Assembly (NCBI GenBank): GCA_020444065.1
Contig: JAHLLQ010000006.1
Coordinates: forward strand, 310,001 to 374,000
Length of the DNA stretch: 64,000 bases
Direction: 5' to 3'
DNA from: a bacterium
GTDB taxonomy: Bacteria > Sumerlaeota > Sumerlaeia > SLMS01 > JAHLLQ01
Shown here one piece after another: positions 7,775-54,479 of the stretch. The notes beneath the pieces are model-generated. The model was given only the letters and a program-made list of their open reading frames with translations, was not told the origin of the DNA and did not search any database. The stretch's first letter is position 1. Each line of letters opens with the position of its first letter. Position numbers and translations under genes: made by a program.

Positions 7775-8055
7775 CAAACGTTCTACTGATTCACTACGAA
7801 GTCCACATCCCCGCCGCCCAATCGTTGAAGGACAAGCGATCGGTCATCAAGAGCCTGACGCATCGACTGCGCACGACATACAACGTGTCGGTTGCCGAAG
7901 TCGACTACCAGGACAAGTGGCAACGCGCGACGCTCGCTGTCAGCGCCGTTTCCGCCCAACGCGATCACCTCGAAGAACTCAGCCGTCGCCTCGTCACCGA
8001 AATCGAATCGCGCCTCGATCTGGTGATCACCGGAATCGACGAAGAATGGCTGTGA
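7771..8055 (+). CDS. DUF503 / YlxP-like small protein
   Basis: 94 aa. ATG 7771-7773 overlaps the upstream TGA (7772-7774), so translation is probably coupled to the RapA-like gene. The sequence has the family hallmarks: a first strand of the type VLLIHYEVHIP, the SLKDKRSVIKSL segment, and a VAEVDYQDKWQ-type strand. DUF503 proteins have a ferredoxin-like fold and often lie between infB and rbfA in Firmicutes. The biochemical role is unclear. Next to RapA, a part in transcription/translation housekeeping is an inference from context only. Confidence 0.85.
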   Translation: MTNVLLIHYEVHIPAAQSLKDKRSVIKSLTHRLRTTYNVSVAEVDYQDKWQRATLAVSAVSAQRDHLEELSRRLVTEIESRLDLVITGIDEEWL

Positions 8056-8082
8056 GTTGTCCTGAATTGGCAAGACAGTTCT

Positions 8083-11463: not shown

Positions 11464-11510
11464 TGCCAGTGTCTCCCTCAGTGATTCCCCGGCCAAGAAG
11501 AATCATGGCA

Positions 11511-11539
11511 ATGGTATTTTACACGGGTCGGGAATTCAA
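11511..11539 (-). promoter_or_regulatory. Candidate sigma-70 promoter for the FG-GAP protein gene
   Basis: On the minus strand TTGAAT (11534-11539) is separated by 17 bases from TACCAT (11511-11516), four of six matches in each element. It lies about 50 bases upstream of the ATG at 11463. Confidence 0.4.
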
Positions 11540-11561
11540 GTGTAGACACGTCTGGCGTGAC

Positions 11562-11606
11562 TAAAAAAGCGAACCGCCCGAGGACGAGGCCTTCGGGCGG
11601 TTCGCT
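11562..11606 (-). terminator. Rho-independent terminator of the ammonium transporter gene
   Basis: A 14-bp stem (11593-11606 with 11568-11581) is followed on the minus strand by a run of six T. It begins 22 bases after the amt stop codon. This is one of the cleanest intrinsic terminators in the window and separates amt from the downstream giant gene. Confidence 0.9.
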
Positions 11607-11628
11607 TTCACGACGAGCGGGAGAGAAT

Positions 11629-13065
11629 TCAGCTTTCGAGCGCCAGCGATCCAGTTGCGGGCTGTGCCGCGGGGGAAGGTGCCGGAGCGGTGCTCGTGGT
11701 CGGCACGAAAGCCGGGGCGCCAGTGCCCCAAGCGGGAGCCGGATAGGCTTCGTTGCCATGCTCGACGATGTCGAGACCGATGAGTTCTTCTTCTTCAGAG
11801 ACTCGCAGCAGACCAAGCTTGCGGAGGGCGAAGAAGATCGTGAACGCCAGCGGGAACGTCCAGAGGAACGCCGCGCCAACGCCAATAGCCTGCACGCCCA
11901 GGCTGACGCCCGGATCGAAGACGCCAACGGCCAGGGTGCCCCAAGCGCCACAGACGCCGTGGACGCTGATCGCGCCGACGGGATCGTCGATCTTGAAGAC
12001 CTTTTCGATTGTCAGGACGGAAACGACAACGATGACACCGGCAACGGCGCCGATGGCGATGGCTGCCAACGGTGAGACGTTCGCGCAGCCGGCGGTGATG
12101 CCGACGAGGCCGGCGAGTGCGCCGTTCAGCGTCATGCCCGTGTCGGGCTTCTTGAACTTGATCCAGCCGGTGATCATGGCGGCGATTGCGCCCGCGCCGG
12201 CGGCCAGAGTCGTAGTGGCGCAGATCCAGCCGATCGTGCGGTCGGCGCCGCTGGTGGTGGAGCCTGCGTTGAAGCCATACCAGCCGAACCAAAGGATGAA
12301 CGTACCGGCTGCTGCGAGCGGCATTGAGTGACCAAGGATCGCCTGCGGCTTGCCCTTGATGAACTTGCCGATGCGCGGGCCAAGCACAATGGCGCCGGCC
12401 AGGGCAGCCCAGCCACCGACGCTATGCACGACGGTCGAGCCGGCGAAGTCGGTGAAGCCAAGGCCTTCGAGCCAACCCGCGCCGGCGTCGCCCAGGAGCA
12501 GACTGCCCCAGGCCCACTTGCCAAAGATCGGGTAGATGAACAGCGAAATCAGGAAGGAGTAGCACAAGTAGCCAACGAACTTCGTGCGCTCTGCCATTGC
12601 ACCTGAGACGATCGTACAAGCGGTGCCGGCAAAGACGACCTGGAAGAACCAGAAGGCAACTCCCCAGTCGGCGTCGACACCTTCCGGGAACTTGAGAGCG
12701 AACAGCGATGAGCCGACCCATCCGCCCGCAGTGGATGCACCGAACATCAGGCCGAAGCCGACGGCGAAGTACGCGATCGAACCCATGGAGAAGTCCATGA
12801 TGTTCTTCATCAGGATGTTGCAGGCATTCTTCGCGCGGGTGAATCCAGCTTCGACAAGTGCGAAGCCGGCCTGCATGAAGAACACGAGTGTGGCGGCGAG
12901 AAGCATCCACACAAAGGCCAGCGAGAGATTAACATCTTCGAACTGGCTGGTGATTTCGGGAGAGATTGTTGAGGTGGCGCCAACGTCCTGCGCCTGGGCC
13001 AGGGACCCCGCGAGGAGGACAAGGGCGGCGAGAATCAGTGGTCGAGCAGGTCCAGGTTTACGCAT
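11629..13065 (-). CDS. amt: Ammonium transporter (Amt/MEP/Rh family)
   Basis: 478 aa from the ATG at 13065, chosen because it begins a signal peptide (MRKPGPARP then a hydrophobic stretch ending AQAQ) and lies 38 bases after the predicted sigma-54 start site. An earlier ATG at 13149 would put codons across the promoter. Residues about 45-450 are the eleven-helix Amt core. The twin pore histidines are in STVVHSVGGW and ISVHGVCGAWG, and the family signature region IVSGAMAERTKF is present. It moves ammonium into the cytoplasm under nitrogen limitation. The C-terminal tail is rich in Pro, Ala, Thr and Ser and longer than usual. No glnK/glnB lies next to it, unlike many amt loci. Confidence 0.95.
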   Translation of the reverse strand: MRKPGPARPLILAALVLLAGSLAQAQDVGATSTISPEITSQFEDVNLSLAFVWMLLAATLVFFMQAGFALVEAGFTRAKNACNILMKNIMDFSMGSIAYFAVGFGLMFGASTAGGWVGSSLFALKFPEGVDADWGVAFWFFQVVFAGTACTIVSGAMAERTKFVGYLCYSFLISLFIYPIFGKWAWGSLLLGDAGAGWLEGLGFTDFAGSTVVHSVGGWAALAGAIVLGPRIGKFIKGKPQAILGHSMPLAAAGTFILWFGWYGFNAGSTTSGADRTIGWICATTTLAAGAGAIAAMITGWIKFKKPDTGMTLNGALAGLVGITAGCANVSPLAAIAIGAVAGVIVVVSVLTIEKVFKIDDPVGAISVHGVCGAWGTLAVGVFDPGVSLGVQAIGVGAAFLWTFPLAFTIFFALRKLGLLRVSEEEELIGLDIVEHGNEAYPAPAWGTGAPAFVPTTSTAPAPSPAAQPATGSLALES

Positions 13066-13114
13066 GGAAGAACCTCTGCTTGAAGGAATGAGTGGTGAAT
13101 CGCTCATCCCTAGG

Positions 13115-13129
13115 GCAGGGGACGTGCCC
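13115..13129 (-). promoter_or_regulatory. Candidate sigma-54 promoter of amt
   Basis: Minus strand GGGCACG, four bases, then CTGC: GG and GC elements are ten bases apart and 9 of the 11 fixed consensus bases match (first base and one T of TTGC differ). The predicted start of transcription is near 13103, about 38 bases before the amt ATG. RpoN control of amt is typical of nitrogen regulation, which supports the call. Confidence 0.6.
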
Positions 13130-13272
13130 ATGGTCAAATCATGACACAAGGTTGCTAAGTTTCGATAACTCAGCTATTCAGATTGAGCTTTAGGAGAGAG
13201 GGGATAATCAGCCTGTCGCCGGATTCCCCAACGTGAGCAATTCGGACCAGCCGTGTCCGCGAAGAGCCACTC

Positions 13273-13992
13273 TCACTGCATCATCTTAAAGCGATAGTCC
13301 TCGCCGGGGAATTCCGGGAACGCTGTCTCGCACATTTCCTGCAGTCGCGAGTATATCCGGGCACCGAAACGCTCCTTCAACTCGAACTCGTCCAGGTTGG
13401 TTGTAATGATGGTCGCGCGACCGATTTCGTAGCGGCGATTAATGATGAGGTAGAGACGGTCGAGTACCTTCGGATCGATGTGCTCGGCGCCCAGGTCGTC
13501 CAGCACGAGGAGATCGACGCCTTCAACCTGTTCGAGAAGTTCACTCTCGCTGAACTCGGCGCTTTGGCTGAAAGAGCCGCGGATGCTGCGCAGCAGATCG
13601 CTGACATTCCAGTAGAGGCCGGAGAATCCGCGACGCATCACTTCGATCAGGATTCCGACGGCAACGTGCGTCTTGCCGGCGCCGGTGCTCCCCCGCAGCA
13701 AAAGGCCGCGGTCTTCGCCCCTGGTGAATGCCTGGGCATAGCTGCTGGCCGCATTCAGAATCTCGCGGCGATGCTTGTCACCGCGCGGCACCTGAAAGGC
13801 CTTGAGCGTCTTGCGCGCGAACCGCTGGGGGATCTGGGCCTGCTCGTAACGAAGTCGGAACGTCTGGGTCCCGAGGATGCCGCAATCGCACCGCTCCGTG
13901 CTGCCGTCATCGCCGATGATAATGCCGTAGCCTCCACACTTCGGACATTCGGCATTTTGTGTGGCAGCACTGGGATTGGCTTTCTTCGGCAT
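13273..13992 (-). CDS. DnaC/DnaI-like AAA+ ATPase (helicase loader family)
   Basis: 239 aa from the ATG at 13992, which has GGAGG eight bases upstream. An N-terminal zinc-binding pattern (CPKC about residue 16, then CDCG) precedes the AAA+ domain. Walker A is GSTGAGKTH (about residue 106), Walker B is LLVLDDLGAE, and sensor I is TIITTNLDE. This arrangement is that of DnaI/DnaC helicase loaders and the related IstB proteins. No istA transposase or IS ends are present, so a chromosomal replication role is more likely than a transposon function. It is divergent from pta. Confidence 0.82.
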   Translation of the reverse strand: MPKKANPSAATQNAECPKCGGYGIIIGDDGSTERCDCGILGTQTFRLRYEQAQIPQRFARKTLKAFQVPRGDKHRREILNAASSYAQAFTRGEDRGLLLRGSTGAGKTHVAVGILIEVMRRGFSGLYWNVSDLLRSIRGSFSQSAEFSESELLEQVEGVDLLVLDDLGAEHIDPKVLDRLYLIINRRYEIGRATIITTNLDEFELKERFGARIYSRLQEMCETAFPEFPGEDYRFKMMQ

Positions 13993-14179
13993 TGGGGCGG
14001 CCTCCGGGAGCATTCGAACGAGGGGCAGGCGACCATAGGGCCGGGCCGATCTCAAGGCCAACTCGGCAACAAACTCCGCTTGTTCCGTTCGGCCGCATGC
14101 CTCTTGATGGGGAGCAAGCGCCGAGTTCGCACGAACAGGCATGCGGCGCACTCCATCAACTCTCACACCATCTAAGAAT

Positions 14180-15205
14180 ATGTTCAAAGACACTCCCCCG
14201 ATTCTGGAAGACCTGTACGTCCGCGCAAAAGCCAACCCCAAACGAGTCGTAATGCCCGAGGCCGCCGAAGACGATCGCACCCTGCGCGCCGCGGCTCGCG
14301 TGATGGAACGCGGTTGGGCAATTCCCGTTCTGCTCGGCGATCCGAAGCAATTGGACGAGCGCGCCCGCGACTTGAACATCAACCTGCAGCGCGCCATCAT
14401 CATCCATCCCCAAACCGACGATCGCATCACGGGCCTGGTCGAGCTCTATCAGACCCGCCGCGCCAAGGAGGGCCGGAAGGACGCCGAAGTGCGCGAGCTG
14501 ATTCTCAGCGATCCGTTGATGTACGGTGCGGGGCTCGTGGCGCGTGGCGAGGCGGACGGCATGACCGCCGGCGCCATCTCCCCCACGGCTTCCGTGATTC
14601 GCGCCGGCTTGAAGATGATCGGAACGGCTCCGGGGATCTCCACGGTCTCTTCCATCTTCCTGATGATGCTGCCGGAAGGGTCCGCCTTCGGGCACCAGGG
14701 CACGCTGATCTATGCCGATTGCGGCGTGGTTCCCAAGCCCGACTCCGCGCAGTTGGCCGACATTGCCATTTCATCCGCGCGGCTGGGCAAAGCGCTGATC
14801 CCGGCGCTCGAGCCGAACGTGGCGATGCTTTCGTTCTCCACAAAGGGCAGCGCTCAGCACGAAGACATCGACAAGGTGGTCGAGGCCACACGCCTAATCA
14901 AGGAACGCGAGCCGGATCTGTGCGTGGACGGTGAGTTGCAAGTGGATGCGGCGATCGTTGCATCCGTGGGAACGCGGAAGGCCCCCGATTCGCCTGTGGC
15001 CGGCAAGGCCAACATCCTGGTCTTCCCCGACTTGGGCGCCGGAAACATCGCCTACAAGCTGACCCAGCGACTGGCCGGGGCCATCGCCCTTGGACCGCTT
15101 CTGCAGGGGTTTGCGAAGCCGATTAACGACCTTTCCCGCGGCGCGACGGCCAACGACGTGGCCGCCGTCACGGCCATCACCGGCGTCGAGGCGCAGACGA
15201 TGTAA
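14180..15205 (+). CDS. pta: Phosphate acetyltransferase (PTA/PTB family)
   Basis: 341 aa. It interconverts acetyl-CoA plus phosphate with acetyl phosphate plus CoA in the cytoplasm. Family signatures seen: the VMPEAAEDDRTLRAA N-terminal strand, ADGMTAGAISPTASVIRAGL, the FSTKGSAQHEDIDKV segment, DGELQVDAA, and NILVFPDLGAGNIAYKL near the C-terminus. Length fits the short Pta type (about 330 aa) without the N-terminal regulatory domain. An acetate kinase gene is not in the window. A phosphate butyryltransferase activity is a less likely alternative. The start at 14180 is preferred to 14141 because the latter only adds a non-conserved tail; the ribosome site is weak in both cases. Confidence 0.9.
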   Translation: MFKDTPPILEDLYVRAKANPKRVVMPEAAEDDRTLRAAARVMERGWAIPVLLGDPKQLDERARDLNINLQRAIIIHPQTDDRITGLVELYQTRRAKEGRKDAEVRELILSDPLMYGAGLVARGEADGMTAGAISPTASVIRAGLKMIGTAPGISTVSSIFLMMLPEGSAFGHQGTLIYADCGVVPKPDSAQLADIAISSARLGKALIPALEPNVAMLSFSTKGSAQHEDIDKVVEATRLIKEREPDLCVDGELQVDAAIVASVGTRKAPDSPVAGKANILVFPDLGAGNIAYKLTQRLAGAIALGPLLQGFAKPINDLSRGATANDVAAVTAITGVEAQTM

Positions 15206-15240
15206 GCCCTTCTGCACAAAGCCCGAAAATCTGGATGCGA

Positions 15241-15277
15241 GCCCCGATTCCTGCCTGCTGGAATCGGGGCCTTTTTG
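15241..15277 (+). terminator. Rho-independent terminator of pta
   Basis: A perfect 10-bp stem, GCCCCGATTC with GAATCGGGGC (15241-15250 and 15261-15270), is followed by CTTTTTG. It lies 36 bases after the pta stop. Confidence 0.9.
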
Positions 15278-15432
15278 TGCCCAAAGGGGTCCGGAGGCAC
15301 TAAAGGCTTTTATTTGGGCTGCAGTCAAAATCCGGAAAACAGCCCCGAAAATCCGTTGACTCGTTGGACCGCTCCGCCGATTCTCTCTGCATTGCAACTC
15401 CCTTCTGTAACGCACCGCCCAAGAGAAGAACC

Positions 15433-15457
15433 TTCAACAAACGCACCACCTGTTGAA
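15433..15457. repeat. Inverted repeat in the leader of the amylase gene (operator-like)
   Basis: TTCAACA (15433-15439) and TGTTGAA (15451-15457) form a perfect 7-bp inverted repeat with an 11-base gap, and a further TTCAAAC follows at 15462. It sits in the 300-base non-coding stretch between the pta terminator and the GH13 gene, about 120 bases before its start. No convincing promoter was found in that stretch. It may bind a regulator. Confidence 0.35.
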
Positions 15458-15577
15458 CCGCTTCAAACGGGCTGAAACAGCGGGAAATCACCTCGAATCG
15501 AGTCCCCGATACGCACCATGCACTCGCAGCATAATACTCATGGGAATATCTCGATTCTCGATAAGGAGTTCGTTCCG

Positions 15578-18223
15578 ATGCATCACCGATTCTCTTTCCC
15601 CCGAATGATCGCGCTTTGCTGGGCGATGGTTTTGTTGGTTGCGGGATCTGTCCAAGCCGGCGGCTGGATCGATCCGGGCAGCCCGACAGCAGGCGGCACT
15701 GCAACGATTCTGTACGATCCGGCGGGTGGACCGCTCCAGGGATCGGGCAATATCAATGTCCACTGGGGCGTCAACGGCTGGAGTAACGTCAGCGACGATG
15801 CCATGTCGATTGGGTCGAGCGGGTTCTGGGAATTCCAGATCTCCGTCCCTTCGAACGCGACGGTCATAGACGTTGTCTACAACAACGGCAGCACCTGGGA
15901 TAACAACAACAACCAGGACTGGCACTTCGCAGTGACCCCGGCGCCGACGCCGACCCCAATTCCGGGTCAGGTAGCGCTCGATCCATCCCCTCCGGTCAGC
16001 GGCAGCAACGTCACGGTGACATTCGACCCCGCCAGCGGACCGTTGGCGAATGCTTCGGCGGTCTACATCCACCAGGGCATCAACACCTGGCAGAACGTTG
16101 TCACGCCGAACCCGGTGATGAGCTTGAACAACGATGGGTTCTGGGAGATCACGATCGCGGTTCCAGCCGCGGCGACACAGCTTGATATGGTCTTCAATGA
16201 CGGCGCTTCGATCTGGGATAACAACAGCGGCGCAGACTGGCACTTCAGCGTGGACCCGGGCGTGACTCCGACTCCGAGTCCCTCCCCCACGCCATCGCCT
16301 TCGCCTTCTCCGTCCCCCTCGCCCTCGCCGAGCCCGTCTCCGTCCCCGAGTCCGTCTCCGTCGCCTTCGCCGACGCCGACTCCTACTCCTTCGCCCTCTC
16401 CGTCCCCCAGCCCCACGCCTTCGCCGAGCCCGACTCCTGGGCCGGGACCGAGCGCGCGCAGCGGCATGGGCGCCAACGTCTATGAGACCGGCACGATGTT
16501 CCGCGTCTGGGCGCCGAACGCCAGTTCGGTCAGTGTGGCCGGCGACTTCAACGGCTGGAGCAGTACTGCGAATGCGCTCTACTCCGAAGGCAACGGCAAC
16601 TGGAGCGTCGATGTGGAAGGCGCCGTGGACGGCGATCACTACAAGTACGTGATCACGAACGGCGAAGACGTTCTGTGGAAAGCCGATCCGTACGCCGAGA
16701 AGATGACGAACTCCATCGGCGAATCGATCGTCCAGGACGGATCCTACAATTGGCAGGCCAGCGGCTACGGCACGCCGGCTTTCAACGAGATGGTGATTTA
16801 TGAAATGCACGTCGGTACGCTGAATGACGAAGTGGGAGGCGCCCCCGGCACCTGGCTGGACTGCGTCGATCGCCTCGACTACCTGGCGGACCTTGGCGTG
16901 AACATGCTGGAAGTGATGCCGATCGCGGAATTCGCCGGCGACTTCTCGTGGGGCTACAACCCGGCGCACCTCTTCTCGCCGGAAAGCGCCTACGGCACGC
17001 CACAGGACATGAAGTACTTCATCGATGAAGCCCACGATCGCGGCATGGGCGTTGTGATCGACGTGGTCTACAACCACATGGGCCCGAGCGATCTGGCGAT
17101 CTGGCAGTTCGACGGCTGGAATTCCTGGGGCATGGGCGGCATCTACTTCTACCAGGATTGGCGCGCATCAACGCCGTGGGGCGACACGCGTCCCGACTAC
17201 GGCCGCGGCGAAGTTCGCTCCTGGCTGCGCAACAACGCGATGTACTGGCTGCAGGACTTCAACGCCGATGGTCTGCGTTGGGATTCGACGGTCAATATCC
17301 GCACCCAGAACAATGGCGGCGGCGGCGACATCGGCGACGGCTGGAGTCTGATGCAATGGATCAATGATGACATCAACGCCAACCAGGGCTGGAAGATCTC
17401 GATCGCCGAGGACCTTCAGAACAACGAGTACCTCGTCAAGAGCACGGGCGCCGGCGGCGCCGGCTTCGACTCCCAGTGGGATGCCGGCTTCGTTCACCCG
17501 ATCCGCCACAACATCATCACGGGCAGCGACTATGATCGCGACATGTGGGCTGTGAAGGATGCGATCTGGCACTACTACGATGGAGACGCCTTCAAGCGCG
17601 TGATCTACACGGAAAGCCACGACGAAGTGAACAACGGCCGCAGCCGCGTTCCGGAAGAAATCTGGCCGGGCAACGCAGGTAGCTGGTACTCCAAGAAGCG
17701 CTCCACTCTCGGCGCCGCGCTGGTCATGACCTCCCCGGGCATCCCGATGATCTTCATGGGCCAGGAAATCCTGGAGGACGGCTACTGGCACGACCAGGAT
17801 CCGATCGACTGGACCAAGGAAACCACCTACGGCGGCATCCATGACATGTACCGCGACCTGATCCGCCTGCGTCGCAACTGGTACAACACGACGAAGGGTC
17901 TGACGGGTAACGGAACGAACGTCTACCACGTCAATAACAGCGGCAAGGTTGTGGCCTTCCACCGTTACTACAACGGCGGTCCTGGCGACGATGTGGTCGT
18001 GGTCGCGAACTTCAGCGAAAACAGCTACAGCAACTACACGATCGGAATGCCCGCCGGTGGCGAGTGGCAGGTTCGCTTCAACAGCGATTGGAGCGGTTAC
18101 TCGGCCGACTTCGGCGACTTCCTCTATCCGAGCACGACGGCCTGGTCCGGCAGTGCGGATGGCCTCGGCTACCATGCCAACGTCGGCATCCCGCCGTACT
18201 CGGTTGTGATCCTCTCGCAGTAA
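15578..18223 (+). CDS. Secreted GH13 alpha-amylase/branching-type enzyme with two CBM25 domains
   Basis: 881 aa from the ATG at 15578 (AAGGAG nine bases upstream, followed by a signal peptide ending VQAGG). Two CBM25-like starch-binding domains occupy about 27-125 and 130-222 (each with HWGVNGW or HQGINTW and a W-D-N-N-x-x-x-D-W-H-F end). A Pro/Ser/Thr linker spans 228-289, then a CBM48-like E-set (about 298-390) and the GH13 barrel. Conserved GH13 sites: VVYNHMG, nucleophile Asp569 in GLRWD, acid/base Glu611 in SIAED, and Asp682 in ESHDE. The barrel resembles glycogen branching enzymes and trehalohydrolases (EMHVGTL, FSWGYNP), so hydrolysis versus transfer is uncertain. Extracellular starch or glycogen use is likely. 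Confidence 0.9.
16261..16446 (+). repeat. Low-complexity Pro-Ser/Pro-Thr linker-coding repeat
   Basis: About 60 codons alternate proline with serine or threonine. They join the CBM25 pair to the catalytic part of the amylase. At DNA level it is a degenerate CCG-TCN/CCG-ACN hexamer array, a possible source of length change by slippage. It also creates a misleading arginine-rich open frame on the other strand. Confidence 0.85.
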
Positions 18224-41334: not shown

Positions 41335-43548
41335 ATGCTATCAGATAGACGGGAGTTCCTGAAGCAGCTCGGAGCCGTTACCGGGAGTGGCTTGCTGGGG
41401 ACCGGATCTGCCTTTGCATCCGAGTCCAAGCATGGCCCGGCAGTCTCCGAGGATGCTGTGGGTGTGTTGGTTGACCTGACGCTCTGCATCGGGTGTCGGC
41501 TCTGCGAGCACGCTTGTAAGAAGGGCAATGGATTCGATGCAGGACCGGTCGAGAAGTACGATGACCAGTCCGTCTTTGCAGAACAGCGCCGCCCAGCGCC
41601 GGACGCTTACACGGTGATCAACGCCGAACCAAATCCGGAAGTGCCCGGCCAAGACGTTTACATCAAGACAAATTGCTTCCACTGCAATTACCCGGCCTGC
41701 GTGTCGGCGTGCATTGTTGGCGCATTGCACAAGACGGAAGCTGGTCCGGTTGTTTACGATGCCTGGAAGTGCATCGGGTGTCGCTACTGTATGGTGGCTT
41801 GCCCATTCCAGATCCCGGCCTATGATTATCACAATCCGCTGACGCCGGAAGTTCAGAAGTGCGAGCTCTGTCACGAGCGCCTCGAGGCCGGCGGAATGCC
41901 GGAGTGCGTAAAGGCCTGCCCGCGCGAGACAATGGTGTTCGGCAAGCGCACTGAGCTTATCAAGCTGGCCCACGAAAGAATTCGCAAGAATCCCGGCAAG
42001 TACATCGATCACGTCTACGGTGAGCACGAGGTCGGCGGAACGAGTTGGATGTACCTGTCGAGTGTGCCGTTCGAGGAGATCGGATTCCTCGATCTGCCGA
42101 AGGAAGCGCCCCCCGCGCTGACGGAGAAGATCCAGCACAGCGTCTTCAAGTACGGACTGCCGCCGCTGATGCTATACGCTCTCCTGGGCGGTGTCATGTA
42201 CCTGACGAAGCCGCGCCAAGGATTTGCGCCACTGAAGAAGGAGACCCTGGAGGCACTGGAGAAGGGACCCGAGCCGGAAGCGGAGCCCGAGGCCAAGGCA
42301 ACCAGGGAAGATCATCCGTGGGAGGAATGGGAGCACGATCACCCGCCGGATCATCACTTACATGCGCACGAAGAAGAACCGGCCCCGGTGAAGGGGAGAT
42401 TCTTCACGCCTGGCGTCATGGTGTTGATCGCACTCGCTGCCACGGGTCTGTTCTTTGGCCTCAAGCGTTTCATCTTCGGCCTGGAATCCACGACGAACCT
42501 GGATCACCAGTACCCCTGGGGTCTGTGGATCGGAGTCGACGTGGCAAGCGGCGTTGCGCTGGCGGCGGGCGGTTTTACGACAGCGTTCCTTGCTCATATC
42601 ATACATCGTGAAAGATATCACGCAATCGTCCGACCGGCACTCCTGACAGCGATGCTTGGTTACACGTTCGTCTGTCTGGGTCTCCAAGTAGACCTGGGGC
42701 GATACTACAACGTCTGGCACCCGATGTTCATGTGGCAGGGCAACTCCGTGCTCTTTGAAGTCGGCATGTGCGTGATGTGCTATCTGACAGTCCTCTACCT
42801 GGAATTCATGCCCATCGCGTGCGAGACTTTCATGGCTCAGGATCGCTTCCCACGGATCAAGAAACTTGCAACCTTCGCTTACGGCAAGGTGAACAAGATC
42901 ATGTTCCTTCTGGTGATCGCAGGCGTCGTTCTTTCCTGCCTGCATCAGTCGTCACTGGGAACGTTAATGGTGATCGCGCCGTCGAAGCTGCATCCTCTCT
43001 GGTGGACGCCTCTGTCGCCGTTGCTCTTCCTTCTATCCGCGATCGCGGTCGGTTTCCCGATGGCTATCTGGGAATCGCTGCTCGCGAGCAAGTCATTCAA
43101 ACTGAAGCCCGAAATGGACGTCCTTGGACCATTGGCGCGCCTTATTCCATTCACGTTGGGCGTGTACCTGATCATCAAGATCGGCGACATGATCTGGCGC
43201 GGGACCTATACGTATCTGGGCGATGGTTCAGTGGAGAGCATCTGCTGGATCATTGAAGTCGGTGCCGGTGTGATTCTGCCGATCGTCATGTTCGCCATAC
43301 CGAAAGTCCGCCGCTCGCCGAAGTTGCTCTTCATCCCGGCGACGCTGGCCGTGCTTGGCGTGTTGTTCAATCGCGTGAACGTATTCGTGATCGGCTACAA
43401 CCCGCCGTACACGGACAAGACGTACGTTCCGTCCATCGGAGAATTCGCCGTCACGATCGGGCTGATTGCCACGTTGATGCTGGTCTATCGCGTGATCGTC
43501 ACTTTCTTCCCAGTCATCAGCCAGCCGAAGGCGAAGGTAGCCGCATGA
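41335..43548 (+). CDS. Tat-exported 4Fe-4S ferredoxin fused to NrfD/HybB quinone-interacting membrane subunit
   Basis: 737 aa, ATG at 41335 with GGAG upstream. A Tat signal (DRREFLKQLG) begins the HybA-like half, which carries 16 cysteines in four groups: CIGCRLCEHAC, CFHCNYPACVSAC, CIGCRYCMVAC and CELC-x(n)-CVKAC, enough for four [4Fe-4S] clusters. A membrane helix (about 280-300) ends that half, as in HybA. A His/Asp/Glu-rich linker (about 318-350) leads to a nine- to ten-helix half that matches E. coli HybB across its length (YPWGLWIGVDV, GRYYNVWHP, CLHQSSLG). E. coli HybA plus HybB total about 720 residues, so this is a near-complete fusion. Expected job: exchange electrons between quinone and periplasmic partners. 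The stop overlaps the next gene by ATGA. Confidence 0.92.
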   Translation: MLSDRREFLKQLGAVTGSGLLGTGSAFASESKHGPAVSEDAVGVLVDLTLCIGCRLCEHACKKGNGFDAGPVEKYDDQSVFAEQRRPAPDAYTVINAEPNPEVPGQDVYIKTNCFHCNYPACVSACIVGALHKTEAGPVVYDAWKCIGCRYCMVACPFQIPAYDYHNPLTPEVQKCELCHERLEAGGMPECVKACPRETMVFGKRTELIKLAHERIRKNPGKYIDHVYGEHEVGGTSWMYLSSVPFEEIGFLDLPKEAPPALTEKIQHSVFKYGLPPLMLYALLGGVMYLTKPRQGFAPLKKETLEALEKGPEPEAEPEAKATREDHPWEEWEHDHPPDHHLHAHEEEPAPVKGRFFTPGVMVLIALAATGLFFGLKRFIFGLESTTNLDHQYPWGLWIGVDVASGVALAAGGFTTAFLAHIIHRERYHAIVRPALLTAMLGYTFVCLGLQVDLGRYYNVWHPMFMWQGNSVLFEVGMCVMCYLTVLYLEFMPIACETFMAQDRFPRIKKLATFAYGKVNKIMFLLVIAGVVLSCLHQSSLGTLMVIAPSKLHPLWWTPLSPLLFLLSAIAVGFPMAIWESLLASKSFKLKPEMDVLGPLARLIPFTLGVYLIIKIGDMIWRGTYTYLGDGSVESICWIIEVGAGVILPIVMFAIPKVRRSPKLLFIPATLAVLGVLFNRVNVFVIGYNPPYTDKTYVPSIGEFAVTIGLIATLMLVYRVIVTFFPVISQPKAKVAA

Positions 43549-44630
43549 GAGACATCAGACCACGTTACATTCTTCTGCTTGCCATGCTGGCAGTCCTGGG
43601 AGTGTTCGCTTCGTCGCAGCTTGTTCTTGCCAATTGCGATGAAGACGAACCGGCGGAGAAGGGTCCGGAGATCGTGATCCTGGACGAGTTGGAGAACGAA
43701 TACGAGCCGGTTCCGTTCGACCACCTGGCGCACGCCCAGATGGCCCAGATGTGGCACGGATGCGTGACCTGCCATCACTACAGTCCGCACCCGGAGGACG
43801 CCTCCAGCACGGCAACAATAGTTCTTTCGGAAACGCCGCGGCAGGAAGAGTCCGCGCAATTCCCGGCCTGTAGTTCCTGCCATGAAGTCGGTCTGGATGA
43901 ATCGGAAATCACTATGCCGGGCTTGAAGGGCGCCTATCACCGCCAGTGCCTGAATTGCCACAAGGAATGGATGCACGAGAACGCCTGCGTGATTTGCCAC
44001 GAACCCAAGGATTCAGAAGTGGAGCCCATGCAACCGACGTCGGGAGACATCGTTGGCCGGATGCACCCGCCGATTCCCGAGCCTGGAGACGTGTACTACA
44101 AGACACGGTTCACGCCTGCAGATGGTGGAAACGTCCTGTTCCGCCACCAGGAACACACGACGCGATACGACATCCGGTGCGTCGATTGTCACTTTGAAGA
44201 CAACTGCTCGCACTGTCACGGCTCGGAAGGCGATACAACAGCGCAAAAGCCCCTGAAGCCGGGCATGACATGGGATGAATCGCACGGACCCTGCATGGCC
44301 TGTCACAAGGATGATCGGTGTCAGCATTGCCACTTCCACGATGAGACCGATCCCCCACCGATGTTCAGTCACGAAATGACGGGGCAGGTACTCGACGAAG
44401 ATCACGTGGAGATCGCGTGTTCGGAATGCCACATGAACTTGCGGTGCGATGAAGTGCCGTCTTGCGGTGGCGTTGCTTGCCACAATGAAAAGCCCATCGA
44501 GTATCCAACAGATCTGCCAGGGCCAGTCCTGACGCCGACTCCATCGCCGACGCCTCTGCCACCCGTGCGAGGAACCGAAGAAGCAGATGGACAGCCAGAT
44601 GCGCCGGCTGCAGAGGGAGGCGGTCTATGA
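43545..44630 (+). CDS. Periplasmic multihaem cytochrome c (about ten haems)
   Basis: 361 aa, start overlapping the stop of the fusion gene (ATGA). The N-terminal signal peptide ends near SSQLVLA. There are nine CxxCH motifs (CVTCH, CSSCH, CLNCH, CVICH, CVDCH, CSHCH, CMACH, CQHCH, CSECH) and one wider C-x4-CH (CGGVACH), so up to ten covalently bound haems. Many free histidines can act as second ligands. The spacing resembles class III/NrfB-like wires rather than a catalytic cytochrome. The C-terminal 45 residues are a Pro/Thr/Ser then Glu/Gly-rich tail, perhaps a linker. Role: electron carrier between the Fe-S/NrfD fusion and the next cytochrome (inference). The stop overlaps the next start. 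Confidence 0.9.
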   Translation: MRDIRPRYILLLAMLAVLGVFASSQLVLANCDEDEPAEKGPEIVILDELENEYEPVPFDHLAHAQMAQMWHGCVTCHHYSPHPEDASSTATIVLSETPRQEESAQFPACSSCHEVGLDESEITMPGLKGAYHRQCLNCHKEWMHENACVICHEPKDSEVEPMQPTSGDIVGRMHPPIPEPGDVYYKTRFTPADGGNVLFRHQEHTTRYDIRCVDCHFEDNCSHCHGSEGDTTAQKPLKPGMTWDESHGPCMACHKDDRCQHCHFHDETDPPPMFSHEMTGQVLDEDHVEIACSECHMNLRCDEVPSCGGVACHNEKPIEYPTDLPGPVLTPTPSPTPLPPVRGTEEADGQPDAPAAEGGGL

Positions 44631-46912
44631 ACGCCTCCACGATACGGCAATTATTCGGAATCGCGTGCTTGCTGATGCTTGTCTCTGCAGCCCGAGTCTA
44701 TGCCGTCGACAAACCGACAGAAGCGGTCGATCCCGGTGGCTGCGTCACAACCGAGTGTCACGGAGAAGTCGAAGACTATGCCGTGCTACACGGTCCGGTC
44801 GGCGGTCTCACGTGCGATGCATGTCACGAAGTCGTCAGCGTCGAAGAACACACCTTCCGACTCTGGCGAGAGGGCGAGAAGCTCTGCACCTATTGTCACG
44901 AGTTCGATACCGGCCTGCTGCCTGTTGTGCACTACCCGGTCACGGCCGGCGAGTGCCTCGGTTGCCACAATCCCCACGGCGGACCGGATCATGCACTGAG
45001 TCGCGAAGAGACAATGGCGGATACGTGCGGCCGTTGCCACGAGAGCGTTTCCTACGGCAAGGAATTCATGCACGACCCCATCATGAAGGGCGAGTGCACG
45101 AATTGCCACCGTCCCCACGCGTCGAGATTCCCGATGCTGCTGGACATTGTCGGCGACGACTTGTGCCTGGCTTGCCACAAGGACTTCGGCAAGGATATGC
45201 AGCAGATTAAGTTCCGGCACGAAGCACTGGATGAGGGCTGTGAAGCCTGTCACGATGTGCATGCTTCCAACTACCCGTCGGGTCTTTCGCTTTCGATCGC
45301 TGATGGCTGCCTGCAATGCCATGAGGATGTGCGCGAAAGCACTCTAGCAGATGTGAAGCACCCATCCGTGGTCGATGAACGCGCCTGTCTGTCATGCCAC
45401 ACGGCGCACGGTGGGGACCTGGATGCTCTGATGCGCGACGAGCCCGTTCGCGTCTGCATGGATTGCCACGACGAGAAGATCGAGAAGGACGGCGTGGAAC
45501 TGATGACCGCGATGGTGCGCATCAACGATCCGTCGCGCTTCAAGCACACGCCGGTGGCGGAAGGCGAATGTGGAGGCTGTCACACGATTCACGGTGGCGA
45601 TCAGGTCGCGCTACTGCAGAGTGCCTACTCGACAGATTTCCACCAGCAATTCTCCCCCGAGAACTATGATCTCTGCTTCGAGTGTCATGACGAACGCCTT
45701 GTGCAGGAAGAGAACGTCGGCGATCTGACTGGGTTCAGAAACGGCGAACGAAATCTGCACTTCGTCCACGTGGCGGAGGGTGAGGACTTCGCCCGCAACT
45801 GCAGAGTCTGCCACGGCGTACACACATCCACGTACCCGATGTTGATTCGCGACAAAGTTCCCTACGGCAATTGGATGATGCCGATTCGGTTCGAAAAGAC
45901 CGAGACCGGCGGAACCTGCATGACGGGCTGTCACACGGACTACGCGTATGATCGCGAGCATCCAGTCGATTCGACAACGCTGATCGCCGCCGATTCGCCG
46001 CGTCTGCCACGAGCGGATAAGGATGAGCCGGTACTTGCCATGTTCACGGGGATGAACCTCGACGGAGAAGTCGTTGAGGTTCCCGACGGAAACCGTCCGA
46101 GCATCATCATGTTCCTGCGCGGTGGCCAGCCACAAAGCCAGCAGATGATGGAAACGGTTGCGGCAGAGAGCAGCGCCCTTCAGCCGGCGCAGATCGTTGC
46201 CATCTTCAGCGGCGAGACGGCCGGTGAGCAGGCAGAACCATACGCCGGCACAAGCAGCGCCCCCTGGCCAATCCTGATTGATCCGGAGTACCATCTCTCC
46301 AGCATGCTGGGCGTTGAGGTCTGGCCCGCAGCGTTCATTGTGCAGTCGGATGGCGTCCAGATTGCACACATCGGCGGAGCGCCTCTTTCCCTGGCGGTCT
46401 CGCTCGAATCCTACATCCAACTGGCTCGTGGCGAGATCGATCGCGAAGCCGTTCGCCAGCGTTTGGCTTCGAACCAAGTCATCGGCGACGGGTCCGCCAA
46501 GAGCGCCATCTGGCACCTGCAGATGGGCGGCAAGCTGCTTGATGAAGGAAAGCCGGAAGAGGCTCGTGCAATGTTTGCAAAGGGCCTCGAACTGGATCCG
46601 GAGTCGGTGGATCTGAAGGTTAAGATGATCAGCACGCTCGCGGAACTTAAGAATGCGAAGGATGCTATCAACCTTCTGGATCGCTTGCCCGAGGATGCAC
46701 TGCCGGAGTGGCAAACGAATCTGCTTCGCGGCCAGGTCATGGCAGCCGTCGGCCAATGGGATGAAGCTCGTCGCCTTGCTGTTGAAGTCCTGAAGCAGCG
46801 CCCGAATCTCGGCGATGCGCACTACCTGATGGGCATGGTGTACGAGCAGAACAAGCAATTCGAACTGGCCGCTGAAGAGTACCGCGCAGCAATCAAGGCA
46901 GGGGGACGCTAA
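44627..46912 (+). CDS. Multihaem cytochrome c fused to thioredoxin-like and TPR domains
   Basis: 761 aa; the ATG overlaps the previous stop. A signal peptide (about 1-26) is followed by 13 CxxCH motifs in residues about 60-420. One C-x4-CH (CVTTECH) near the start and one C-x3-CH (CMTGCH) at the end could raise the total to 15 haems. Many motifs sit in GECxxCHxPH or EACxxCHxxHxS units typical of doubled CxxCH domains. Residues about 465-603 look like a TlpA/AhpC-type thioredoxin fold (IIMFLRGG, WPILIDPEYHLS, VWPAAFIVQSDG), but the usual C-x-x-C place reads GQPQS, so it cannot do thiol chemistry. Residues 620-760 are TPR repeats. Last gene of the operon, ending at a strong terminator. Confidence 0.9.
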   Translation: MNASTIRQLFGIACLLMLVSAARVYAVDKPTEAVDPGGCVTTECHGEVEDYAVLHGPVGGLTCDACHEVVSVEEHTFRLWREGEKLCTYCHEFDTGLLPVVHYPVTAGECLGCHNPHGGPDHALSREETMADTCGRCHESVSYGKEFMHDPIMKGECTNCHRPHASRFPMLLDIVGDDLCLACHKDFGKDMQQIKFRHEALDEGCEACHDVHASNYPSGLSLSIADGCLQCHEDVRESTLADVKHPSVVDERACLSCHTAHGGDLDALMRDEPVRVCMDCHDEKIEKDGVELMTAMVRINDPSRFKHTPVAEGECGGCHTIHGGDQVALLQSAYSTDFHQQFSPENYDLCFECHDERLVQEENVGDLTGFRNGERNLHFVHVAEGEDFARNCRVCHGVHTSTYPMLIRDKVPYGNWMMPIRFEKTETGGTCMTGCHTDYAYDREHPVDSTTLIAADSPRLPRADKDEPVLAMFTGMNLDGEVVEVPDGNRPSIIMFLRGGQPQSQQMMETVAAESSALQPAQIVAIFSGETAGEQAEPYAGTSSAPWPILIDPEYHLSSMLGVEVWPAAFIVQSDGVQIAHIGGAPLSLAVSLESYIQLARGEIDREAVRQRLASNQVIGDGSAKSAIWHLQMGGKLLDEGKPEEARAMFAKGLELDPESVDLKVKMISTLAELKNAKDAINLLDRLPEDALPEWQTNLLRGQVMAAVGQWDEARRLAVEVLKQRPNLGDAHYLMGMVYEQNKQFELAAEEYRAAIKAGGR

Positions 46913-46980: not shown

Positions 46981-47112
46981 GGATTTCCCCGTTCCAGCAC
47001 TTTGGAGTTCTGATTGCTCTCTGTAATAGTCTTATCCCCTCGGGGTTGCATTGGCTCGGCGAGTGTGACAGGATCGCACAACCTGACGAAGAATGCACTC
47101 AAGGAGAGCGAT

Positions 47113-47520
47113 ATGTCGGACATTACGCTGGAACAAGCACACGAAGTCCTGATGGCGGCCGTCGCAGCATCGAACGAACTGGGACTGAAAATGGACGTCG
47201 CCGTCGTGGATGCCGGGGCGAACTTGAATGCCTTTGCGCGCATGGATGGAGCCTGGCTCGGCAGCATCGATATTGCGATCAAGAAGGCTCGCACTGCCCG
47301 GTTCTTCGATATGCCGACGGGAGCGATCGGCGAACTATCGCAACCGGGAGGTTCGCTCTACAACATCGAGCACTCAAATGGCGGGCTGATCACCTTTCCC
47401 GGCGGCCTACCCATCAAGAATCCCGCGGGCGAAGTTATTGGGGCCATCGGAGTCTCCGGCAGCACCGTCGTGAACGATCACGCCGTGGCATCGGCAGGTA
47501 TAGCGGCGGTCTCCTGTTAG
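47113..47520 (+). CDS. GlcG/HbpS family protein
   Basis: 135 aa from the ATG at 47113 (AAGGAG six bases upstream). Family features: the N-terminal helix with [19 protein letters not shown], the strand [42 protein letters not shown] and the closing [20 protein letters not shown]. The family includes the haem-binding sensor HbpS and GlcG of glycolate operons. Next to a multihaem operon a haem link is tempting but unproven. The gene has its own terminators on both sides, so it is a separate unit. Confidence 0.85.
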
Positions 47521-50962: not shown

Positions 50963-53900
50963 TCACGGCTCATAAGGCTGCGAAAGCACCTCGACTCGTT
51001 CCAGGTAAATTGAACTTCCGACGTCCAACAATTGCTGCGATGGGTTTGCGAGCAGGTCGAAGGAGCAGAGCAGGCTTCCGCCCGATCCCATGTTCGGTGG
51101 GAAGAAGACGGTGTACTGCTTTGAGTTTCCCACGGTCGGAAGGTCGGCGGCCGAGCCCGTTGCGGCGATGTTCGTGTATTGGCTCGCGCGGAAGCGCGAT
51201 TCATTCAGGCGCAAGCGGAACTCGGGGACTTTCTGCGGATCCTCGATGTCCGTTCCCACGGTAAAGACGGCCCAGTAGCGACGACCCGATTCGATCGCGA
51301 CGTTGTTGGACGAATTGAGCGATGAACCCCAGAAGCCAAATTGGAAGTCATCCGTGTCCGCAATGCTAATGCCAAGACGCCGGTTCGCGGCATCGTACGC
51401 GAAGGTCGGTTCAGCGAAGACGCCTGGAATCGTGTACGATTTCCAACCATCTTGCCCTTGAAGGAAGGGGTATTCGCGGTCGACGAGCGTGCTCGCCACA
51501 AACGGATCAGACATCGATTTGAGATCGACACGATCAAGCATCACCGTCGCCGTCGCCGAGTCCTGCGGATAGAAGTTCAGCATGTCGAAGTAGCACCGGA
51601 AAATCGAATCGTGTTCGTCGGATTGGAAGATGAGTGGGTAGTCGCGCCCTCCAGGCGTTGGCGAGAATGCCCCGTCGAAATTCGATTCGATCAAGAGGAC
51701 CTCTGATTTTCCACCTCCCCCGGTTGTTGTGCGCATCCGAATCTGCGGGGAACGACTGCGATCTGGTCCGTTCGCCGCGACTCGGAAAGTGGCGACATAA
51801 ATCGAGGTGCCCGGTTCGCCCGCCAGTCTCTCCGTATCCATCCGAGTCGGCATTTTGCCGGGCGCTACGATCTCGTAGGCGGGCGATTGCCAGATGCCCA
51901 CCTGATTCGTGTTGTCCGTCGCCGTTGTGTCCAGCGTCCCCGGCTCACCCGGCGTGTTACCGAACACAGGCGAGGAAAAGCCGGGATACCCAAATGGCTG
52001 CCAGCCCTCTCGTCCAATGGCGAATTCGTAGGACTTGTGCCGGACTGACCCCAGGTTCTCGAACCACGCAACCCGATCGTCGTTTTCGGATGCAGAGAGA
52101 ACGTCCTTGTCCCCATCGCCATCCAGATCCACGGCGAGCACCGACCTGGGCAGTCTGAGGTTGGTGGAGATGGTTTGCTGGGAACTGAAGGTTCCCGCTC
52201 CATCGAGGTTCTCGTACCATGCAATGCGGCCATCTGTACGGGAAGAGGAAAGAACGTCTTCGTCCCCGTCGCCGTCGAGGTCGGCAGCAAAGACCGAGTT
52301 GGGGTGATGGGCGTATACTGTGATGGTCTGCTGAGGGCCAAATGCCCCCTTTCCGTCGGTGTTCTCATACCATGCGATGCGGTCATCCCAAGAGGAGGCA
52401 GAAAGGACGTCGAGATCGCCATCGCCGTCGAGGTCCGATCCAAAGACGGAATTGGGGCCTTCGGGCTCGAGGGAGATGATCGCTCCAGGGCCGAAGTTCC
52501 CCTTTCCATCCGTATTCTCGTACCACACCACTCGGTCCTTTTGGTAGAAAGCGGCAAGGAGGTCGAGATCGCCATCGCAGTCCAGGTCCGCAGCAGAAAC
52601 CGAGAAAACCACATAGGCCATAGTGGTGATGATCCGCTGGGGTCCAAAGGTCCCTTTCCCATCGATGTTCTCGTACCAGTAGATCCGGTCTTCCTGATAG
52701 GAGGCAGAGAGAACGTCGATATCCCCATCATCGTCAAGGTCTGCCGCGAGGATCAAAGAAGCGGTATCGGAGTCAGCGATGATTTGTGCCGGACCGAAGG
52801 TCGCTGCTCCGTCGATGTTTTCATACCACACGATCCGGTCATCCCAACCGGATGCCGAGAGGACGTCGTCGTCGCCGTCACCATCCAGGTCTGCCACAAT
52901 GAGCGAATCAGCATAATCGATGTCGGTGGCGACTATTTGCTCGGGACCAAACGTCCCAGCCCCATCAACGTTCTCGTGCCACGCGATGTGATTGCCGCTG
53001 TAGGAGAGAGAAAGCACATCGAGATCCCCGTCGTCGTCAAGGTCTGTAACGGCCATGCAATGGGCTTTCCGGGCGAAGGTCGAGAGGATGTGCTGAGAGC
53101 CAAAGGTCCCCGCTCCATCGGTATTCTGGCACCAGGAGATTTCGCCCTCCCACGACTCGGCAGAGAGAATGTCGATGTCTCCGTCTCCATCCAGATCCGC
53201 CGCGAAGATGGAGTCGGCACCGGCGGGAATGGAGGTGATCGTCTGTCGAGGACCGAACGTCCCAGTCCCGTCGATGTTCTCGTACCACATGGTCCGACCA
53301 TATTGGGAAGCGGAAAGGACGTCCTTGTCGCCATCGCCATCCAGGTCCGCCGCGAGAACGGAAAGGCAGCGATTTGCGGCGATCGTGATGGTCTGCTGGG
53401 GTCCGAAGGAACCTTCTCCGTCGATGTTCTCATACCATGCGACGCGATCGTCTTCATAGGAACCGGATAGAACGTCGATGTCCCCGTCGCCATCAAGGTC
53501 TGCTGCGAAGACGGATTCGGCACGATCTGCAGAGCTGGTGATGGTCTTCTGGGGGCCGAAGGTCCCCGCTCCGTCAATGTTCTCGTACCATGCAATGAGG
53601 TCATCGTTTTCGGACGCGGAGAGAACGTCGGCGTCCCCGTCGCCGTCCAGATCCACTGCAAAGACAGATGGGGGGGCATCTGTGGCCCTGGTGATAGTCC
53701 TCTCGGAACCAAAGGTCCCATTCCCATCTATGTTCTCATACCATGCAATTCGGTCGCCAGCATATAAGGCTGACAGTACGTCGAGGTCTCCGTCGCCGTC
53801 GAGATCTGCCGCGAAGATAGATTCGGCGTAATCGGCGCTGGTTGTGATAGTTCTTCGGGGACCAAAGGACCCTGCTCCGTCGATGTTCTCATACCACGCA

Positions 53901-54262
53901 ATGCGATCGTCAGCCGGAGAGGCGGAGAGAACATCGATATCTCCATCGCCATCGAGATCTGCCGCCAATACTGAATCGGCACGAGTGGTTTCATAGGCAA
54001 TGGTCCGCTGGGGCCCGAAGGTTCCCCCCCCATCCAGGTTCTCGTACCAAGCAATGTGGTCGTAATTCCCGGTGCCGAAGAGGATGTCAAGATCCCCATC
54101 GCTGTCCAGGTCCGCCGCGATGACCGAACGCGGAGCTCCCAGACTCGGGCCTACGACATTTTGCATGGGACCGAAGGTCGTTTGTCCCCGTGATAGGGCC
54201 GGGAGCATGGAAGCCAGAATGGCGATCAGGATATAGCAGCGAATCCGACTCGTAAACAGCAT
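50963..54262 (-). CDS. Giant secreted VCBS/FG-GAP repeat protein with C-terminal two-part module
   Basis: 1099 aa from the ATG at 54262 (GAGAGAGG five bases upstream, followed by a signal peptide ending SRGQ). Residues about 30-740 contain 14 repeats of about 51 residues of the form VFAADLDGDGDIDVLSAS then DDRIAWYENIDGAGTFGPQ-x-TI. The D-x-D-x-D-G-D loops should bind calcium, and 14 blades again fit two seven-bladed propellers (inference). Residues about 742-1099 repeat the two-part module found at the N-terminus of the 8083-11463 protein (GYPGFSSPVF, ATDNTNQVGIW, GQDGWKSYTIPG, FQFGFWGSSL), with stretches near identical at DNA level. The order of module and propeller is reversed. Likely extracellular. 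Confidence 0.88.
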   Translation of the reverse strand: MLFTSRIRCYILIAILASMLPALSRGQTTFGPMQNVVGPSLGAPRSVIAADLDSDGDLDILFGTGNYDHIAWYENLDGGGTFGPQRTIAYETTRADSVLAADLDGDGDIDVLSASPADDRIAWYENIDGAGSFGPRRTITTSADYAESIFAADLDGDGDLDVLSALYAGDRIAWYENIDGNGTFGSERTITRATDAPPSVFAVDLDGDGDADVLSASENDDLIAWYENIDGAGTFGPQKTITSSADRAESVFAADLDGDGDIDVLSGSYEDDRVAWYENIDGEGSFGPQQTITIAANRCLSVLAADLDGDGDKDVLSASQYGRTMWYENIDGTGTFGPRQTITSIPAGADSIFAADLDGDGDIDILSAESWEGEISWCQNTDGAGTFGSQHILSTFARKAHCMAVTDLDDDGDLDVLSLSYSGNHIAWHENVDGAGTFGPEQIVATDIDYADSLIVADLDGDGDDDVLSASGWDDRIVWYENIDGAATFGPAQIIADSDTASLILAADLDDDGDIDVLSASYQEDRIYWYENIDGKGTFGPQRIITTMAYVVFSVSAADLDCDGDLDLLAAFYQKDRVVWYENTDGKGNFGPGAIISLEPEGPNSVFGSDLDGDGDLDVLSASSWDDRIAWYENTDGKGAFGPQQTITVYAHHPNSVFAADLDGDGDEDVLSSSRTDGRIAWYENLDGAGTFSSQQTISTNLRLPRSVLAVDLDGDGDKDVLSASENDDRVAWFENLGSVRHKSYEFAIGREGWQPFGYPGFSSPVFGNTPGEPGTLDTTATDNTNQVGIWQSPAYEIVAPGKMPTRMDTERLAGEPGTSIYVATFRVAANGPDRSRSPQIRMRTTTGGGGKSEVLLIESNFDGAFSPTPGGRDYPLIFQSDEHDSIFRCYFDMLNFYPQDSATATVMLDRVDLKSMSDPFVASTLVDREYPFLQGQDGWKSYTIPGVFAEPTFAYDAANRRLGISIADTDDFQFGFWGSSLNSSNNVAIESGRRYWAVFTVGTDIEDPQKVPEFRLRLNESRFRASQYTNIAATGSAADLPTVGNSKQYTVFFPPNMGSGGSLLCSFDLLANPSQQLLDVGSSIYLERVEVLSQPYEP
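52039..54190 (-). repeat. Tandem 153-bp coding repeat (14 copies)
   Basis: The 51-residue propeller units are repeated in tandem with strong conservation at DNA level, especially around the GATGGCGAC-type calcium loop and the TGGTATGAGAAC segment. They are divergent enough that every copy is distinguishable. Such an array can gain or lose units by recombination. Confidence 0.85.
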
Positions 54263-54479
54263 GATTACCTCTCTCCAAATCGTCCCGAGCAACATGATCG
54301 GAACGATTTTCAATCCTTCTCCTTCCGCTTCGTCACGGCATCCCCCTCCAACGGAAGGACACTTCCCCAGCAGAGGATTCGCGGAAGAATCGTTTACATC
54401 CGTACAGGGCGCAAGCAGAGAAACGATTGTCAGGTGCTGGCGAACACGAGATCAGAAATGTGAACCGTTCCGGCTAGGG

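Follow-up and report, generated by a model that had tools for sequence, protein, structure and literature searches.

The three-gene operon described here probably encodes a stand-alone quinone:cytochrome c oxidoreductase that has its own 25-haem wire and is linked to a porin-cytochrome conduit of the outer membrane whose genes lie elsewhere in the genome. The operon lies within a 64-kb stretch of bacterial DNA, which we refer to as the window. Its first gene, A, encodes a fusion of an Fe-S protein and an NrfD-type protein, and genes B and C encode multihaem cytochromes. In the proposed mechanism, the NrfD half of A would bind (mena)quinol in the inner membrane, and electrons would leave the quinol by way of A's four Fe-S clusters and reach the ten-haem protein B, docked at the periplasmic face. 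They would then move to C, a 15-haem, MtrA-like wire, and on to the porin-cytochrome conduit of the outer membrane. The 25-haem relay would either feed this conduit or receive electrons from it. We infer a physical complex of the three proteins, this electron path, and the link to a porin; as the operon itself contains no porin gene, the last of these rests on co-occurrence and kinship.

The crossing of the periplasm, between quinone enzymes of the inner membrane and conduits of the outer membrane, is a poorly understood step of extracellular respiration, for which the entry proteins usually considered are CymA, CbcL, and ImcH (PMC6295460). In this operon, a single transcription unit pairs an MtrA-like wire with an NrfD-type entry that may also move protons, and does so in bacteria beyond the usual models.

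Gene order and surroundings of the operon

The three open reading frames were found on the forward strand where a sequence-only reading of the window had placed them: gene A at 41,335–43,548 (737 aa), gene B at 43,545–44,630 (361 aa), and gene C at 44,627–46,912 (761 aa), with ATGA overlaps at 43,545–43,548 (A/B) and 44,627–44,630 (B/C). A six-frame translation of the 64 kb contained 24 CXXCH motifs, 22 of which fell in B and C, a clustering that excludes a chance origin. One of the other two is an Fe-S ligand in A and the second lies elsewhere; the minus strand had none. A scan for an operon promoter or terminator gave no signal clearly exceeding chance. As had been read from the sequence, no gene for a hydrogenase, molybdoenzyme, or nitrite reductase was present among the ten neighbouring genes scanned.

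Upstream of the operon, the window contains a gene for a Bcp peroxiredoxin, and shortly 3′ of it, on the same strand, a gene of the haem-degrading HbpS-like family (47,110–47,520). Both were left out of the unit, because neither adjoins the related operon of a Phycisphaera sp. (locus L025, discussed below). Further downstream, the minus strand encodes a large protein with some 15 FG-GAP repeats (50,963–54,313). The contig also carries genes for two very large multihaem proteins (1,169 aa with 18 CXXCH and 1,397 aa with 36 CXXCH; L047, 6,813–15,710) some 46–54 kb upstream of the operon, in a stretch that ends about 4.3 kb before the window starts. These two proteins are candidate extracellular cytochromes. 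Another protein encoded on this contig, of 589 aa, has 15 CXXCH motifs (L048, 8,665–10,434).

Gene A encodes a fusion of HybA-like and HybB-like proteins

Gene A had been read as a HybA-HybB fusion, and its layout agrees with this, with Pfam matches to Fer4_11 and NrfD. The protein starts with a twin-arginine signal (N-terminus MLSDRREFLKQ, motif RREFLK), followed by a four-cluster Fe-S domain of the HybA/HmcB type (41,458–41,949, + strand, residues 42–205), whose 16 cysteines are sufficient for four [4Fe-4S] clusters. A HybA-type anchor helix (42,151–42,204, + strand, residues 273–290), matched by eye to the C-terminal membrane anchor of Escherichia coli HybA, leads into a histidine- and acid-rich linker between both halves (42,205–42,399, + strand, residues 291–355). 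The remainder is a ten-helix NrfD domain of the HybB/HmcC type (42,400–43,524, + strand, residues 356–730), which placed A in the NrfD-like, quinone-interacting family PF03916 with 68.8 bits (cut-off 25.8).

In E. coli HybA, the membrane anchor is followed by a His/Asp-rich tail at the end of the protein, and the helix and linker of A are their counterparts. The retention of both ahead of the NrfD part makes the fusion topologically possible: judging from the sequence, the Fe-S domain would lie outside and the helix would run inward, with the linker inside and the NrfD domain starting inside. Four ion-path residues that matter in HybB, Arg89, Tyr99, Glu148, and His184 (PMC8076601), are conserved in A as R433, Y443, E490, and H537. 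All best matches of A among the NCBIfam models were below the curated cut-offs, so that A falls outside the Hyb families (HybB, 349 bits against a cut-off of 450; HybA, 250 against 263) and the Hmc families (HmcB, 333 against 420; HmcC, 298 against 550). It is not a member of the Qrc families either (QrcC, 59 against 400; QrcD, 127 against 570).

Genes B and C encode cytochromes with 10 and 15 haem motifs

The earlier haem counts, about ten for B and 13–15 for C, were confirmed by motifs that are kept in relatives. B has nine CXXCH motifs and one CX4CH; in an alignment of its relatives, eight of these ten motifs never vary and two are almost invariant. The protein consists of a four-haem module resembling HmcA/NhcA, which were its structure matches, and six further haems. 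It scored far below the profiles of 16-haem HmcA (54 bits, cut-off 400) and nine-haem NhcA (34 bits, cut-off 640), and with ten haems it is a member of neither.

C contains 13 CXXCH motifs, one CX4CH, and one CX3CH; in relatives whose sequence covers the sites, the first CX4CH and the last CX3CH are found again. The 15-haem part (44,741–45,934, + strand, residues 39–436) has its CXXCH repeats in pairs. It matched PDB entry 6r2q chain A (E 4e-10), which we take to be MtrA in the MtrCAB complex of Shewanella; the label of this chain in the structure set searched is cystathionine beta-synthase. Against the profile for MtrA/DmsE decahaem cytochromes (TIGR03508), C scored 123 bits (cut-off 192), and it has 15 motifs rather than ten. 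C is also denser in haems, with about 28 residues per haem compared with about 33 in MtrA homologues (PMC5566968).

While the sequence-only reading was right about the number of haems in C, it overlooked the second half of the protein. The best fold match of these approximately 300 C-terminal residues was E. coli YbbN (CnoX), which likewise has a thioredoxin fold followed by TPR repeats. The thioredoxin-like domain (46,019–46,396, + strand, approximately residues 465–590) has a weak AhpC-TSA match and no CXXC motif, and the TPR repeats (46,490–46,900, + strand, approximately residues 622–758) were modelled with a pLDDT of about 75–83 across most of residues 640–720. Unlike YbbN, this half is joined to a cytochrome that has 15 haems and a signal peptide, and the model is confident only in the TPR part, the thioredoxin part being modelled at low confidence. 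Given the missing CXXC motif, the thioredoxin/TPR half is most likely an aid to assembly or docking, and not a site of redox chemistry.

Histidines outside the haem motifs exceed the haems in both cytochromes (16 for 10 in B, 18 for 15 in C), which allows bis-His ligation of all haems. This surplus, along with a profile search in which neither B nor C matched any catalytic multihaem family, makes it very improbable that B or C is itself catalytic, as a multihaem reductase with a five-coordinate haem, even though octahaem reductases are known and a relative of A (locus L127, below) carries one as a fusion. AlphaFold modelled most of B and C with a pLDDT below 50, the TPR part of C being the sole usable portion. 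Low values are to be anticipated when haem proteins are modelled without their haems; still, these poor models count against the proposed wire.

Comparison with known quinone modules and conduits

Hmc, to our knowledge, has no catalytic subunit. The Hmc and Nhc systems of sulfate reducers share with the operon an Fe-S protein, an NrfD-type protein, and a multihaem cytochrome of the HmcA/NhcA type, without an enzyme subunit. They differ from it in that the Fe-S and NrfD parts of A are fused, B has 10 haems rather than 16 or 9, an additional 15-haem, MtrA-like cytochrome is encoded, and HmcD, HmcE, and HmcF are absent from the operon. Nhc is described as a cytochrome c3:quinone oxidoreductase without an enzyme subunit (PMC8076601). 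Cbc4 of Geobacter (CbcSTU), a menaquinol:ferricytochrome c oxidoreductase, comprises an Fe-S protein, an NrfD-type protein, and a cytochrome c, and SirCD of Shewanella is able to replace CymA (PMC11434368). Both are likewise enzyme-free NrfD-type modules that pass electrons from quinol to periplasmic cytochromes and are linked to extracellular respiration (PMC11434368). The operon has the same composition as Cbc4, with no enzyme; compared by description, however, Cbc4 and SirCD have separate subunits and other cytochromes.

These systems contradict the view that the known relatives all have a dedicated enzyme and leave the suggestion of a new complex type without support, as enzyme-free NrfD modules are already known. 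What stands of the conduit interpretation is a conserved unit without an enzyme of its own, likely tied to extracellular acceptors or donors. The novelty lies in the fusions and in joining an NrfD module directly to an MtrA-like wire, the parts themselves being known. No description of a fused Fe-S/NrfD protein together with an HmcA-like and MtrA-like pair was found in the literature searched, which mostly excluded subscription journals.

HybA and HybB of hydrogenase-2 show the same domain order, anchor helix, and NrfD ion-path residues as A. In contrast to them, A has no HybO or HybC in its operon, lies off the branches formed by HybA and HybB in the trees, and scores under the NCBIfam cut-offs. 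C, for its part, resembles MtrA/DmsE and the conduits of the Mtr, Uet, and Oet types in being a wire of paired CXXCH motifs, and its paralogues adjoin porin-like proteins. It differs from MtrA/DmsE in its 15 haems (against 10), its thioredoxin-TPR half, and its place in the operon of a quinone module, where no porin is encoded.

The operon was tested for membership of Hmc, Nhc, Hyb, Qrc, and Nrf and belongs to none of them, with scores below the cut-offs, subunits missing, and NrfA encoded elsewhere in the genome beside its own NrfH-type gene. An NrfD cluster reported in Planctomycetota (PMC10732223) has a gene list that reads as alternative complex III and not as this operon.

The fused gene is followed by both cytochromes in four genomes

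Among 84,980 species genomes scanned, 12 relatives of A were found. The fused form occurs in four genomes: that of the window, another of its class (L023), a member of the Planctomycetota (L024), and the Phycisphaera sp. (L025). A search of about 40 genomes of the window's class and phylum yielded one further fused operon. In all four genomes, fused A is followed by B- and C-type cytochromes, which argues for the wire, and no catalytic subunit lies beside it. This is the gene order that the sequence-only reading had proposed looking for. Two of the four loci, L023 and L024, are bounded by contigs that end within C, which weakens the argument. Fused A of L023 (7,670–9,961) contains an in-frame TAG, also present on the same contig in genome G031; with a contig coverage of 1.2×, this is probably a read error.

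In L025, B and C form a single protein of 1,153 aa (12,367–15,828) with 22 CXXCH motifs, including the thioredoxin-TPR end, and the stretch in place of the signal peptide of C, at the B-C junction, has no hydrophobic segment. This one-piece homologue makes direct contact testable and speaks for the wire; it also lends support to the earlier suggestion, drawn from the ATGA overlaps, that the stoichiometry is fixed. It bears as well on a stricter version of the proposal, in which all three proteins assemble into one membrane-anchored complex whose 25-haem wire crosses the whole periplasm and docks straight into the porin, with no diffusing carrier. We regard this version as possible but less likely than not; if it is true, the L025 protein is that wire. 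The nearest flanks of the L025 operon encode a polynucleotide phosphorylase, a URO-D protein, and a sulfatase, and no respiratory enzymes.

Trees of the Fe-S half and the NrfD half were concordant, each recovering the same four-member clade of fused A (97/96 and 99/96, respectively), so that the fusion probably arose once. This clade is nested in a 14-member clade of Fe-S, NrfD, and cytochrome sets, apart from E. coli HybA and HybB. Unfused Fe-S and NrfD proteins with B-like cytochromes of 10–13 haems were found in Zixibacteria/GN15, KSB1, Krumholzibacteria, and other Planctomycetota. The relatives in KSB1, Zixibacteria, and Krumholzibacteria are without C, which counts against the wire. Three Desulfobulbaceae-type matches with 37–38% identity are hydrogenase-2 operons, named by sequence and gene order. 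A second group of NrfD proteins (41–45% identical), spanning Planctomycetota and other phyla, has six CXXCH motifs encoded in one frame with the NrfD part and lies behind a HybA-like gene (L129, L137, L138, L007, and L058).

Two Planctomycetota encode an NrfD protein joined to a 13-haem cytochrome (L127, 7,622–10,888; L128, 1,189–4,422). The 13-haem part in L127 contains an octahaem of the tetrathionate-reductase family (405 bits, cut-off 375), showing that this NrfD clade can have an enzyme attached, although the fused-A group has no such case; this too weighs against the wire. A gene for a 19-haem, CbcL-like protein adjoins the L127 fusion.

Gene C is related to cytochromes of porin clusters

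The genome of the window contains a second multihaem locus, a Uet-like porin-cytochrome cluster on contig C1 at about 700–716 kb (L044, C1:695,001–715,000; − strand, 5,077–16,152). It encodes a 15-haem paralogue of C (35% identity over 443 aa), a separate thioredoxin-TPR protein, a beta-barrel-like protein with a terminal Phe, two NHL proteins, a 5-haem lipoprotein, an 11-haem protein, and a CbcL-like fusion of multihaem c and membrane b parts. With C paralogues, porin-like and NHL proteins, and an 11-haem protein, clusters of this type resemble the Uet set by its description, which lists 11-haem, 4-haem, porin, and NHL proteins (PMC10734462). No porin of the MtrB/PioB family (PF11854) was found in this genome, which, like the lack of a porin in the operon, counts against the wire. 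Its porin-like gene has no Pfam match and was called from three features: its final Phe, its resemblance to two others, and its count of alternating residues, the last of which fell inside the range of shuffled sequences.

Porin-type clusters, whole or in pieces, were present in all three other genomes with fused A. Fourteen further Planctomycetota loci have relatives of C, and a porin-like gene (beta-barrel-like and mostly Phe-ending) was found in 8 of the 14 stretches fetched. In most of these loci, a thioredoxin-TPR gene lies directly 3′ of the C-type gene. At L090, a C-type gene precedes a separate gene whose product is 31% identical over 310 aa to the second half of C, so that C looks like a porin-cluster cytochrome merged with its neighbour gene. 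In a tree of C, the proteins of the window, L024, and L025 formed one clade (100/99), with the C-type gene of L090 as sister; L023 was left out. This kinship with porin clusters argues for the wire. Among 392 Planctomycetota genomes, the A clade occurs in 5, the C family in 20, and both in 4 (hypergeometric p 2.4e-5, a value that ignores shared ancestry and is inflated by it, as G364 and G437 are near kin).

A third relative of C on contig C1 (L046, 2,352–3,434) has nine CXXCH and two longer motifs, and is divergent from a gene whose multihaem product has a NapC/NirT domain.

Possible electron partners and direction of flow

Instead of a conduit, the module could serve a distant periplasmic enzyme acting on nitrite, a sulfur compound, or hydrogen. 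B and C would then distribute electrons, as Hmc and Nhc do with cytochrome c3 and a periplasmic hydrogenase. HmcA and NhcA are indeed nearest to B, L127 has a similar NrfD fused to its octahaem, and the window genome encodes NrfA. However, NrfA lies on another contig, adjoining a gene of the NrfH type rather than being served by an NrfCD module, and the only Mo-bisPGD match sits within the complex I locus. Two NiFe hydrogenases are encoded beside NAD-binding or HdrB/HdrA-like and FlpD genes and not beside Tat-exported partners, and from these neighbours both look cytosolic. No known enzyme clearly needing the operon was thus found among the Mo-bisPGD, NiFe hydrogenase, and NrfA candidates of this genome. 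Together with the membership of C in a porin-cluster family, this makes service to a distant enzyme unlikely. The genome does encode a porin-type conduit that could use the operon.

The preferred wiring, from a quinone module through B and C to a porin-cytochrome conduit, could also run inward, with electrons supplied externally, by Fe(II), a partner cell, or a surface, passing through C and B to A and on to menaquinone. We consider this possible but tentative, its probability overlapping that of the preferred reading, which has the same wiring. Quinone reduction is the role of HybAB and Qrc (PMC8076601), and CbcL/MtoC types are known in both directions (PMC6295460). Alternative complex III and a haem-copper oxidase, named by gene order and sequence, are present in the window genome, so O2 is a possible sink. 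No sequence feature, however, indicates the direction, and relatives differ in it: HybAB and Qrc reduce quinone, whereas Cbc4 is described as quinol-oxidising.
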